This document shows, in pieces, positions 12,126 through 59,590 of a DNA stretch of 64,000 nucleotides. The DNA comes from an uncultured Paracoccaceae bacterium (GTDB lineage: Bacteria > Pseudomonadota > Alphaproteobacteria > Rhodobacterales > Rhodobacteraceae), in the NCBI GenBank assembly GCA_947499715.1, contig CANMPL010000006.1:62001-126000 (forward strand). Direction: 5' to 3'. Each line of letters opens with the position of its first letter. Position 1 is the stretch's first letter. Position numbers and translations under genes: made by a program. The notes under the pieces were generated by a model, which made no database searches, was not told the origin of the DNA, and saw nothing but the letters and a program-made list of their open reading frames with translations.

Positions 12126-12647
12126 ATGACCGCCCAAAGCTACGATTTCCGCCGTGCAACGATGGATGACATCCGCCTGCTTATGACGTGGCAAGCGCAC
12201 CCGCATGTCAGCGCATGGTGGGATGCGGATGAACCCTACGACAAAGTAGAGCTCAGCGACCCGCGCGTCGCGCGCTGGATCGTCTCGACCAATGGCCGCC
12301 CATTTGCTTTCATGCAGGACTACACCGTGCATGGCTGGGCCGATCATCACTTTGCCGACCTTCCAAAAGGTACGCGTGGCATCGACCAGTATATCGGCGA
12401 TCCCAACATGATCGGGGCAGGGCACGGCACGGCGTTTATTGGCGCAAGGATGCAGGCACTTTTTGCGGCTGGCGCACCCGTCATCGCGACCGATCCGCAT
12501 CCCGATAATCAACGTGCAATCACGGTCTACGCAAAGCTCGGCTTTGTGCCCTTCGGACCACCGCAGCACACCCAATGGGGCTTGATCCTGCCCATGCAGG
12601 CCGCAGCGCCACCGGGCAACCAAATTCTTAACGTTAACAGCACTTAA
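12126..12647 (+). CDS. GNAT acetyltransferase of the AAC(6')/IucB-like group
   Basis: A 173-residue N-acetyltransferase (GNAT fold) using acetyl-CoA. The segment DQYIGDPNMIGAGHGTAFI near residues 93-111 is the signature of the Acetyltransf_8 group, which includes aminoglycoside 6'-acetyltransferases and siderophore acyltransferases. The chain also has DPHPDNQRAITVYAKLGF, the usual C-terminal GNAT motif. Whether it modifies an antibiotic or a metabolite cannot be told. The C-terminal VNST and the stop codon are supplied by a dispersed repeat element beginning at 12633, so the original 3' end may have been replaced. It follows the helicase gene and may be co-transcribed. Confidence 0.8.
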   Translation: MTAQSYDFRRATMDDIRLLMTWQAHPHVSAWWDADEPYDKVELSDPRVARWIVSTNGRPFAFMQDYTVHGWADHHFADLPKGTRGIDQYIGDPNMIGAGHGTAFIGARMQALFAAGAPVIATDPHPDNQRAITVYAKLGFVPFGPPQHTQWGLILPMQAAAPPGNQILNVNST

Positions 12648-12714
12648 CACTTTCATGCGCATGGGATGTGCATGGGTTGTGTATGGTTTGTGACCATCGG
12701 AACGGCGCGTTAAC
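12633..12714 (+). repeat. 82-bp dispersed element with GTTAAC ends
   Basis: The element starts and ends with GTTAAC and contains three degenerate copies of an 11-12-base unit (GCATGGGTTGTG-like). A homologous 81-bp copy lies inside glcF at 42902-42982 in the opposite orientation: GTTAAC, then 21 bases, then the three units, then about 15 bases and GTTAA. The first 15 bases encode the last four codons and stop of the acetyltransferase gene. Confidence 0.75.
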
Positions 12715-17939: not shown

Positions 17940-18038
17940 GGTTTGACCAAAAGGGCGCGGCAAGCCGCGACGACATGCAGAAGAGAGGAGGAGAAGTGAC
18001 GCGCAGGGCCACAGGTTCCGCGCGGGGCGGCGTTGGAG

Positions 18039-18069
18039 CCTCCGGCGGGGATATTTTTGGCCAAAAGAA
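18039..18069 (+). repeat. Copy of the GGGATATTTTTGG repeat family
   Basis: The segment GCCTCCGGCGGGGATATTTT continues TGGCCAAAAGAAG. The same block appears at 32107, 32287 (inverted), 44988 (inverted), 57517 and 63491 with small changes. It lies between the acetyltransferase operon and the ffh 3' end. Confidence 0.7.
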
Positions 18070-18096
18070 GCAGGGGGCTGCGCATCATCGGCTGGG

Positions 18097-32076: not shown

Positions 32077-32106
32077 CCCGATTGGCGTGGTGGTCGAGGG
32101 GGAAGG

Positions 32107-32345
32107 TGCCTCCGGCGGGGATATTTTTGAACCAAAGAAAGTCCGAATGCGCCACCTTGCCGAAGTCGCTCGGCGCAAAAGCAAGGTGGCGACTTTCTCC
32201 GGTTACGGTCATCGGCGTCCCCGCCTGTACCGCCCCGACAAAAAAGCGGATTAACCTTAACGGACGATGAACAGATCCCGGATTTCACTTTCTTTGGTTC
32301 AAAAATATCCCGGGGGGTGAGCCGCCTTGCGGCGAGGGGGGCTGG
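32107..32345. repeat. Composite inverted-repeat element
   Basis: Two copies of the GGGATATTTTTGAACC repeat face each other: 32118-32142 and 32287-32311 are perfect 25-bp inverted repeats. Between them lies a strong stem-loop: CGCCACCTTGC (32150-32160) with GCAAGGTGGCG (32181-32191), extended by GAAAGT/ACTTTC outside. The right copy is followed by a GC hairpin (GCCGCCTTGCGGC) and then the 3' end of the broken DUF3052 gene. It contains no coding frame. Confidence 0.7.
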
Positions 32346-42523: not shown

Positions 42524-43906
42524 TTATCGCAGGATTGGCACGGCGGGTGTTGCATTTGCGTCGGCGTCAAGTGCGGGTGGTTTTGGCCCGCCCGTGGCCC
42601 AATCAAGCAGTTCCACGGTGTGCACGATCGGCACATCGGTGCCACCGCCGATCTGCATCATACAACCGATGTTGCCAGCGGCGATGATATCAGGGGTAAG
42701 TGCTTCTAGAGTTTGCACTTTTCTGGCCTTCAGCTGCTTTGAGATCTCTGGCTGCATCAGGTTATAGGTGCCAGCAGAGCCACAGCACAGGTGGCTGTCG
42801 GCTGGTTCCAGCACGGTAAAGCCTGCGCTGCGCAAAAGGTCCTTTGGTGCAGATTTGATTTTCTGACCGTGCTGTAGGGAGCAGGCCGCGTGGTAAGCAA
42901 CCTTAACGGAATGTAAGTCATGCACAACCGATGCAGAACCCATGCACAACCCATGCGTATCAGAGTCTGAAGATCCGTTAACCGCCGTCACGGTGGTCAG
43001 TTCCTGCAACACCTCGGAAATATCTTTGGCGATGGCCGAAACGCGCGCCGCATCCTCGGCCAATTCGGGGTCATTGCGGAACATGTGGCCGTAGTCCTTG
43101 ACCGTCGTGCCGCAGCCAGAGGTGTTGATGACAATGGCATCCAATCCGGCATCGATTTCCCGCGCCCAGGCGCGGACGTTCTTGGCGGCGGTGGCGTGGC
43201 TTTCGTTTTCCTTGCCCATGTGGTGGGTCAGCGCGCCGCAGCACCCCTGACCTTCGGGGATCACAACCTCTGCCCCCAAACGGGTCAGCAAGCGGATGCT
43301 GGCGTCATTGATATCGGTGTTGAGCGCGCGTTGAGCGCAGCCCGTCATCAACACGACGCGCATTTTGGCGTCAGGCACGGCAAAGGTTTGCGGGTCGTCG
43401 TTACGGCTGACGGGGGGGATATGTTTGGGGGCCATTTCCAGCATCGCGCGCAGCCGCGCGTCGGGCATGAAGCGTGCAAAAGGCCGCCCGATCTTGGCGC
43501 CAAGCAGCGCCACGCGGAATCGCATCGGGTAAGGCAGGATCCGCGCCAGCACCCAGCGCAACGCGCGGTCGGACAAAGGGCGGTCGTAGTGTTCTTCGAT
43601 ATAGGCGCGGGCGTGATCGACCAGGTGCATGTAGTGCACGCCCGAGGGACAGGTGGTCATACAAGCCAGGCATGACAGGCAGCGGTCGATATGTTTGACC
43701 GTCTTGGCGTCCGGCTTACGCTCGTTTTCCAGCATATCCTTGATCAGGTAGATCCGTCCGCGGGGACTGTCGAGTTCATCGCCCAGCACTTGATAAGTGG
43801 GGCAGGTGGCGGTGCAGAAACCGCAGTGGACACAGGCCCGCAGGATTTCATTGGCGCGCTGGGTGCCGGGGTTCTTAAGCTGCTCTGGCGTGAAATGGGT
43901 CTGCAT
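42524..43906 (-). CDS. glcF: Glycolate oxidase iron-sulfur subunit GlcF with in-frame repeat insertion
   Basis: GlcF passes electrons from glycolate oxidation to the respiratory chain. Two [4Fe-4S] clusters are marked by Cys25, 28, 31, 35 and Cys76, 79, 82, 86, and the two CCG-type domains by GQGCCGALTHH and SHLCCGSAGTYN. Length is 460 residues, more than usual. Residues 309-335 (VNGSSDSDTHGLCMGSASVV and on to K335) are encoded exactly by an 81-bp dispersed element; it interrupts a linker between the two CCG domains without shifting frame. The start is next to the glcE stop (1-base overlap). Whether the insertion affects activity is unknown. Confidence 0.93.
   Translation of the reverse strand: MQTHFTPEQLKNPGTQRANEILRACVHCGFCTATCPTYQVLGDELDSPRGRIYLIKDMLENERKPDAKTVKHIDRCLSCLACMTTCPSGVHYMHLVDHARAYIEEHYDRPLSDRALRWVLARILPYPMRFRVALLGAKIGRPFARFMPDARLRAMLEMAPKHIPPVSRNDDPQTFAVPDAKMRVVLMTGCAQRALNTDINDASIRLLTRLGAEVVIPEGQGCCGALTHHMGKENESHATAAKNVRAWAREIDAGLDAIVINTSGCGTTVKDYGHMFRNDPELAEDAARVSAIAKDISEVLQELTTVTAVNGSSDSDTHGLCMGSASVVHDLHSVKVAYHAACSLQHGQKIKSAPKDLLRSAGFTVLEPADSHLCCGSAGTYNLMQPEISKQLKARKVQTLEALTPDIIAAGNIGCMMQIGGGTDVPIVHTVELLDWATGGPKPPALDADANATPAVPILR
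42902..42982 (-). repeat. 81-bp dispersed element inserted in glcF
   Basis: On the minus strand it begins GTTAAC and ends GTTAAG, with three GCATGGGTTGTG-like units in the middle. It matches the 82-bp copy at 12633-12714 in layout (21 bases from GTTAAC to CATGGG in both) and in most positions of the repeat units. Length 81 is a multiple of three, so glcF stays in frame. Confidence 0.8.
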
Positions 43907-57499: not shown

Positions 57500-57516
57500 G
57501 CCGGAGACAGATTTTG

Positions 57517-57551
57517 TGCCTCCGGCGGGGATATTTGAGAACCAAAGAAAG
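57517..57551 (+). repeat. Copy of the GGGATATTTTTGG family
   Basis: GTGCCTCCGGCGGGGATATT continues TGAGAACCAAAGAAAGTG. It lies between the converging regulator and VWA genes and follows the regulator stop by 18 bp, consistent with a terminator role. Confidence 0.7.
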
Positions 57552-57553
57552 TG

Positions 57554-59590
57554 CTATTGCGACAAGCTGCTGGCAAGGCGCATAAGTTGCACAGCTTCAG
57601 TCCGATAGCCGAAAGGGTCGGATCCACGGGCGGAGTTGGCCAGCGCAATGGCGTCGGCATAGGTCCAATCGCCAAGGTAGCTGTCGTCCCGCAAAAGTTG
57701 ACCGAAACCGGCGATGGCGGCAGCGAACTGCGCCTCTGATCCGGCATCGGCGGCTGTGATCGGCGTGGTCAGGAGTTGGCTGACATCATCGCCCGGAGCT
57801 TTGTAGCGCAGTTTCAAAAAGCCCCATTCGTCGCTGGAGGGCGTGCTTTCTTCGGTCGCATAGCGCAGCGGATCGGACAGTTGCGCGGGCGAGCCGGTGG
57901 GCGTGACCTCGTAGATGGCGATGACGGAATGGCCTGCGCCAAGCTCGCCCGCATCGACCTTGTCATTGTTGAAATCTTCGCGGTTGAGGGCGCGGGTTTC
58001 ATAGCCGATCAGGCGGTATTCGGCGATTTGGGCGGGGTTCCATTCGACCTGAATTTTGACGTCACCGGCGATGGTGAAAAGAGAGCCGGTGAGCTGGTCG
58101 ACCAGCACCTTTTGCGCCTCTGACAGGGTGTCGATATAGGCAGCCTGGCCGTTGCCGTTTTGGGCCAGCGCCTGCATCGTGGCATCATCAAGGTTGCCAC
58201 GACCAAAGCCCAGCACGGAGAGATAGGTGCCAGTGTCGCGTTTGTCAGCAATGTAGTCTTTGAGCGCGTCGGGGTCATTGATGCCGACATTGAAATCGCC
58301 GTCGGTGGCAAGGATCACGCGGTTCACCTCGCCATCCGCTGCCATGCCATCGGCCACCTGATAGGCCTGTTCCAGCCCGCCGACCCCGTTAGTGGAGCCA
58401 CCTGCGCCCAGTTGGTTCAACGCATTGATGATGACGTTACGCGCGCTGGCAGGGGTGGGGGCAAGAACTTGCCCGGCAGAGCCTGCATAGGTGACGATGG
58501 CGACCTCGTCTTCGGGACGGAGTTGATCGAGCATCAGCAGGAAGGATTGACGCAGAAGTGGCAGTTTGGTCGGGTCGCTCATGGAACCTGAGGTGTCGAT
58601 CAGGAAGACAAGGTTCAGCGGCGGGCGGGTTTCCACGGCGGGCATCTGGCCTTGCAGGGCGATGTGCACAAGCTGCGTGTCGGGGTTCCAAGGCGTTGTC
58701 ATCGTGCTGACGGTGGGGCGGAACGGGGCGTCGCCTGCATCGGGGGCGGGGTAGTCGTAGGGGAAGTAATTGATCATTTCCTCAACCCGGACCGCGTCTT
58801 TCGGCGGCAGTTGGCCGCGCATCAGCGAGGACCGCACGACGGAATAGGCGGCGGTGTCCACGTCGATGGAGAAGGTGGAGACGGGGGTCTCTGCCGTGAT
58901 TTTGAGCGGGTTGGGGGCGGCGTCGGGGAAGGCCTCGGTGTTGGGTTCGAGGGGTTGGATGGCGTCGGCGGGTGGGGCCGGGGCCACGAGCGATAGGGTC
59001 TCGCCTTGAGCGCGAGTGCGGGTTTGCGCCAAAGGTGCTTCGGCTGCAAGAGACTGAATTACGACGACCCCTCCGGCTTCGGTACCGACATCTGCCGAGC
59101 GCGATGGAATATCGGACATAACGACGGGCGCTTCCATGACTTCAGGCGCCAAGCTACCTTCGGCATCGCCTGCTGCGAAGTCGTCCGCCTCTTGCCTGTC
59201 GGCGCTCAGCAACGCTTCGGAGAAGTTGCCGGGTGCCTGCTGGAGCAATTGATCCTCAGACACCGCTCGTTTCTCTGTCACAGATGCGGGCAAGGGCGGT
59301 GGCGTCGGCGTGCCTTGCCAAAGGTCCTGACCCATCGGGGTCACGAACAGAAAGCCAACAGCGACAAGGGCGGTGGTGGCGGTCAATCCGCCTTTGGTGG
59401 TCATTGCGTTCAACATGGTTTTCACTCCTGAAAAGATATTCCTAGAAGTGGGACGCGGGGCAGGGCGCGATCCTTGGAGTGCATCGAAATTTTCTTGCGC
59501 CAGCATCAGGTTTTCGGCCCGGCGCTGGGCGTCGGGGCGCGGCGTGGCGCTGTCCATGAGGGCACGCAAGTCGTCAAGATCGTCGGTCAT
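57554..59590 (-). CDS. VWA-domain protein with anti-sigma-like topology
   Basis: A 678-residue protein. Residues 1-65 are cytoplasmic and helical, with an acidic start ([20 protein letters not shown]). One membrane helix follows at about 69-86. The rest is extracytoplasmic: a Pro/Ala/Glu-rich spacer, a vWF N-terminal region ([20 protein letters not shown]...INYFPYDYP), a VWA domain with the MIDAS motif DTSGSMSDP (around 340) and the DUF3520-like C-terminus. YfbK-type VWA proteins have this layout. Because the start overlaps the ECF sigma-factor stop (ATGA), I infer that the N-terminus may act as an anti-sigma domain. Confidence 0.85.

Follow-up and report, generated by a model that had tools for sequence, protein, structure and literature searches.

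The nearest functional analogues of the DNA sites described here are the Noc sites of B. subtilis and the SlmA sites of E. coli. Approximately 70 Noc sites and 24–52 SlmA sites are reported per chromosome; both are palindromes, and both are noticeably underrepresented at the terminus (PMC4726725). On that description, the present sites are similar in forming a chromosome-wide set that numbers in the tens, with 60–73 matches per genome, and different in being direct 11-bp arrays that are evenly spaced. Near the probable terminus of G002, a related genome, the sites may at most thin out.

The Rickettsia palindromic elements (RPEs) are described as mobile sequences of 105–146 bp that have inverted ends, form long stem-loops, and are known in frame within genes (PMC2229807). 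So described, they resemble the present sites as dispersed repeats translated in frame within conserved proteins; the present sites differ in their short direct repeats, their fixed positions across species, and their even spacing. A tandem array within a dispersed element also occurs in a Porphyromonas gingivalis MITE containing a minisatellite (PMC4596501). From what that account gives, the present element is unlike it in its even spacing and in the lack of evidence for mobility. Iteron arrays of replication origins are built from direct repeats roughly one helical turn long, which the 11-bp arrays resemble; iterons lie at one origin, whereas here approximately 70 arrays are distributed over the chromosome. 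Among the titles listed from the open-licence PMC literature, in one case 10 of 794, there was no paper on this element.

The in-frame site of glcF

The window, meaning the whole 64,000-nt stretch of DNA analysed here, contains two sites, one intergenic and one read in frame within glcF.

42524..43906, (-) strand: glcF, glycolate oxidase iron-sulfur subunit, 460 aa, GlcF by NCBIfam PRK11274
42919..42982, (-) strand: glcF repeat copy, in frame from residue 309; R1 match of 67.0 bits, the copy itself being among the 13 used to build R1
42956..42982, (-) strand: left module of the glcF copy, GTTAAC...CTTCAGAC...ACG
42923..42955, (-) strand: three 11-bp tandem units of the glcF copy, CATGGGTTGTG, CATGGGTTCTG, and CATCGGTTGTG
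42902..42918, (-) strand: right flank as far as GTTAAG, outside the repeat match
12633..12693, (+) strand: second copy, intergenic, with an opposite-strand gene following after ~106 nt; G004 counterpart in L353
12709..12714, (+) strand: right-hand GTTAAC of the intergenic copy, read from the sequence

Two models were used in the searches: R1, a sequence-only model from 13 copies, and R2, a model from 44 sequences of four genera.

An earlier sequence-only reading held that codons 309–335 of glcF match a dispersed element base for base, from GTTAAC to GTTAAG. These codons are indeed 42982–42902, in frame and without a stop, and copies across the genome bear out a dispersed repeat in frame within the glcF linker. 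The match is looser than had been thought, as the two window copies are only 78% identical over 60 nt, and the element is shorter, as 17 nt of 42902–42982 fall outside the repeat match. Instead of the 27 residues proposed, the site adds a net of approximately 20 (460 vs. ~440 in the commonest linker class of the orthologue alignment). The extra Cys and His that had been remarked on are present, although as one Cys and three His in the 27-residue segment.

The left module of glcF carries the CTTCAGAC variant, without the in-frame TAA given by the commoner CTTAAGAC; it is readable because CTTCAG stands in place of CTTAAG. At the other end, the right-hand AAG falls in the alignment on the residue just ahead of VAYH, a K in the closest orthologues and frequently a T in others. 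In the AlphaFold2 model of GlcF (mean pLDDT 70.1), residues 306–325 have values below 50 and lie between helix 296–309 and strand 335–339. Solved structures for GlcF are of distant relatives only.

The glcF site is present in five of the six genomes of the genus. R1 finds it in G001, G002, G003, and G005 and not in the sister species G004, where a match to the left module persists in the shorter linker without a change of register (ungapped score 14 vs. a shuffle mean of 5.5, with 0/3000 as high, and a best of 9 among 79 other linkers). Given that this match is kept in register, the simplest reading is that the genus ancestor had the site and that G004 deleted part of it. No other site match lies at 502–626 kb in G004, the region where glcF lost most of its site.

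A search for linkers without the element, which the earlier reading had called for, found the R2 core in 0 of 80 glcF loci, one of which (L009) is apparently G004's own record. The linkers of these loci vary in length and are shorter or unrelated in sequence, some unrelated ones being equally long. Those of L021, L038, L047, L067, L075, L077, and L080 are long, unrelated to the repeat, and have a common AGTDA-like motif. One record, L051, is titled Nocardioides marinus and has a Rhodobacteraceae-like glcF; it is probably mislabelled or contaminated.

Architecture and copies of the site

The core of the site is three to five units of 11 bp with the consensus NNTGTGYATGG. Typical of this genus is the left module GTTAAC...CTTAAGAC, and many copies begin with GTTAACGCGnCTTAAGAC. 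Several copies have GTTAAC at either end, and ACCGYACGGT-like palindromes lie beside some. As 11 is not divisible by three and the unit has no stop in either direction, all six frames stay open through the array. GTTAAC and CTTAAG each have a TAA in one frame.

With filters off, R2 finds two sites in the 64-kb window, 12654–12694 (47.2 bits) and 42920–42960 (44.1 bits), both belonging to the 44 sequences behind the model, and the next best match scores 5.2. A 30-base degenerate pattern with at most three mismatches has three matches in the window, all at the two sites; 100 shuffles gave no match. In the whole genome, blastn gives 20 matches including the query, and R1 gives 73 copies at E ≤ 0.01 (150 of 1194 candidates scored). 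The copy set is unlikely to be an artefact of scoring this fraction of the candidates, given that a scan of a contiguous 400 kb returned the same seven sites as the genome search and one marginal site. TGTGYATGG occurs 14 times in those 400 kb, 12 times within sites. The same threshold yields 67 sites in G004 and 60 in G002.

Other repeats are also present. A second dispersed repeat, GTGCCTCCGGCGGGGATATTT..., has three copies in the window (18036–18084, 32106–32154, and 57516–57564), and a similar string adjoins a site in another genus (L464). Loci L215 and L217 have a nearly identical right flank of ~55 nt beside the element, possibly another repeat.

Inheritance and spacing

The sites form a vertically inherited, evenly spaced family, a conclusion that is well supported. 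When masked flanks are compared by tblastx, 65 of the 73 sites are tied to a site-bearing locus of G004, a genome with 67 sites in all. Sixty-four of the 73 lie within 400 nt of their predicted place in G004, with the same orientation in 64/64, and map to 63 distinct G004 sites; at L215, the G004 site is 1.1 kb off the predicted place. The eight sites without a G004 flank match are those in the glcF, rsmC, cobJ, MFS, and LacI genes and three intergenic ones, of which one lies at the end of a contig. Identity between the two genomes is 70% for the element and 62% for the adjoining non-coding DNA, a modest gain in conservation seen in 35 of 51 intergenic pairs (Wilcoxon p 0.003). This comparison covers 51 of the 65 pairs, with in-gene pairs and those with fewer than 20 non-coding flank bases omitted.

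Along contigs C1–C10, which hold 65 of the 73 sites, the 55 intervals have a mean of 49 kb and a coefficient of variation (CV) of 0.57, vs. 0.91 for simulated uniform placement (0/5000 as low). Only one of these intervals is below 10 kb, where 10.1 are expected. The CV is 0.62 in G004, with 0/62 intervals below 10 kb and 9.5 expected, and 0.65 in G002, with 0/56 and 7.9 expected. For G002, the CV effect fades with strong sites alone, from P 0.029 at ≥30 bits to P 0.31 at ≥40 bits, which is not significant. Since site positions are common to the genus, the three tests are not independent. In other genera, no interval is shorter than 17.6 kb in G037 (38 of 40 sites) or than 41 kb in G016 (15 of 16 sites), with eight intervals each.

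The noisy GC skew of G002:C1 (20 samples) turns near 1.45–1.5 Mb, and sites look sparser at ~1.23–1.75 Mb. For an approximate dif-like pattern there were two matches, both poor, and these were set aside. Near dnaA, each of three genomes has two or three sites at a distance of 28–46 kb, spaced 3–13 kb apart:

G000:C1:548628-563025: closely spaced sites near dnaA
G002:C2:441087-452227: closely spaced sites near dnaA
G004:C1:1453807-1466061: closely spaced sites near dnaA

Sites inside genes

By a simple codon-usage gene caller, 65 of the 73 copies are intergenic and eight are inside genes, so further in-frame copies exist, as the sequence-only reading had wished to see surveyed. The genes are glcF, an ADP-forming acyl-CoA synthetase (acs), a GH2 glycosidase, an RsmC-like methyltransferase, CbiG/CobJ, the end of an MFS transporter, ValS, and a LacI-type regulator. 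The reading frame is open through the array in all eight. Orthologues were aligned for glcF, valS, rsmC, cobJ, and acs, and all five copies fall in variable loops. The loop that the array occupies in rsmC, cobJ, and acs has the same length as in the nearest outgroups. The valS loop is four residues longer than that of G011 and equal to that of G007, and the alignment of ValS to 1GAX has gaps at the site.

Among the six genomes of the genus, the site is present in valS of six, cobJ of five, and acs of three; that of rsmC is clear in the present genome and weak in three others. The valS site is kept while residues and unit arrangement vary between species, which points to selection on the DNA. 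G003 and G005 have an additional GTTAAC there. A reading of the valS arrays in another phase in some species was rejected, as the phase is the same wherever units align.

Inside the glcF site, amino-acid change is fast (pN 0.32 vs. 0.068) and synonymous change slow (0.40 vs. 0.60, the 5th percentile of windows) among four genomes. Synonymous divergence is also low in cobJ (0.30 vs. 0.57) and is not clearly reduced in valS, rsmC, or acs. The comparison omitted near-duplicates (G002 for glcF and valS; G001 for rsmC, acs, and cobJ); it also omitted G004 in the case of glcF, and G005 in those of acs and cobJ. That the reduction is confined to glcF and cobJ counts against DNA-level selection. So does the more frequent loss of in-gene sites, five of eight being without a G004 partner at E ≤ 0.01, compared with three of 65 intergenic sites without a flank match, one of them at a contig end. 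In the present genome, seven in-gene sites lie toward gap midpoints (mean 0.91, permutation P 1.2e-4). This pattern was not used because it is not repeated in G004 and G002, whose six in-gene sites have values of 0.31, 0.89, 0.63, 0.81, 0.50, and 0.63.

Breadth in the family

Three other genera yield 40, 16, and 5 sites with R1 (E ≤ 0.05), and the loci read from them share the unit array but not the left module. G011, close by ValS, RsmC, and CobJ, gives no match, even in a more sensitive search. At E ≤ 0.001 with strict filters, R2 has matches in 43 of the 394 family genomes sampled (42 of 393 genera), four of the 43 having supplied training sequences, and 351 have no match. At least 16 matches are found in 13 of these genomes (12 genera), and many of the rest have only 1–6.

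Alternative explanations

An old MITE- or RPE-like element could have dispersed in the ancestral genome of the genus, its copies kept a minimum distance apart by target immunity, and now be fixed, its coding copies being tolerated in-frame insertions. This history, which seems rather unlikely, would suit the dispersed and largely intergenic copies, the GTTAAC and ACCGYACGGT ends of some, the residues gained by glcF, and the precedent of in-frame RPEs. In-frame copies in coding genes, as in RPEs, are found in eight of 73 cases. The other hallmarks are missing: GTTAAC or ACCGYACGGT ends occur in some copies only, in place of regular terminal inverted repeats, and folding is weak rather than a stable stem-loop (z −0.79 to −1.60 in seven folds of five copies). 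Insertion sites are largely shared between relatives, and the loci read in the other genera share the units but not the left module. One copy each, compared by blastn with 72,556 plasmid and 50,697 phage records, had no match, and a plasmid or phage origin was rejected on this result. The earlier proposal of an RPE-like mobile insertion thus stands in its in-frame dispersed repeat and is not supported in its recent mobility, because 64 of 73 copies have the same place and orientation in G004 and the spacing is over-regular. A simple insertion is likewise not supported, because the rsmC, cobJ, and acs sites leave loop length unchanged. Viral contigs L506–L510 have one exact triple-unit pattern each.

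A transcribed element at gene ends, such as a terminator, an mRNA-stability element, or a small RNA, would agree with the excess of sites in convergent gaps (16) over divergent ones (7). It is nevertheless improbable, since neither window site has an Rfam match, folding is weak, both orientations relative to genes occur, and regulation predicts no spacing of 10 kb or more; an RNA element was rejected, as Rfam and folding both gave nothing. The sole Rfam match above the curated threshold in the window is the ffh small RNA RF01793 (19669–19720, (-) strand, 59.6 bits). DnaA titration has also to be weighed, as the complement of the DnaA box is TGTGNATAA, which the first seven letters of TGTGYATGG resemble, and sites lie near dnaA in three genomes. 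However, TGTGYATGG ends in GG instead of AA, and dnaA is general, whereas the site is in only 43 of 394 family genomes. Titration sites resembling DnaA boxes are therefore very improbable.

Proposed role of the sites

The sites, a chromosome-wide and vertically inherited family, are probably binding arrays for a putative chromosome-organising protein, to which they would be landmarks. The glcF segment is one member among ~70 sites in even steps of ~50–60 kb. Each site is a helically phased array of three to five 11-bp units, in this genus usually after GTTAACGCGnCTTAAGAC, on which a putative DNA-binding protein would load side by side. Selection would act on the spacing, and the sites would serve to organise, segregate, or protect the chromosome, like Noc or SlmA sites. 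Counting for this reading are the number of copies, their conserved positions and even spacing, the higher conservation of the element than of its flanks, its breadth in the family, the persistence of the valS site, and the low synonymous divergence in glcF and cobJ. Counting against it are the unreduced divergence in the other three genes, the instability of in-gene copies, the loss of most of the glcF site in G004, the dependence among the spacing tests and the fading effect in G002, the 351 family genomes without a match under strict filters, G011 included, and the modest size of the conservation gain. The sites are normally intergenic, and a few in-gene arrays would be tolerated because they are open in all six frames and fall in variable linkers, as in GlcF. 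Since Noc and SlmA sites are palindromic, the present sites may work like them without belonging to their class; the likeness to RPEs fails on two counts. A stronger proposal, which is plausible but tentative, is a new Rhodobacteraceae chromosome-architecture system in which DNA-level selection holds helically phased 11-bp arrays at nearly even ~50-kb steps, also inside the coding loops of valS, glcF, and cobJ, and so shapes protein sequence.

If the proposed role is correct, these bacterial chromosomes would carry dozens of evenly spaced, inherited DNA landmarks, and in-frame repeats should not be taken for mobile insertions by default. DNA-level selection would then determine part of the amino-acid sequence of essential enzymes, ValS among them, and the sites would make large-scale chromosome organisation open to concrete tests in a widespread group.
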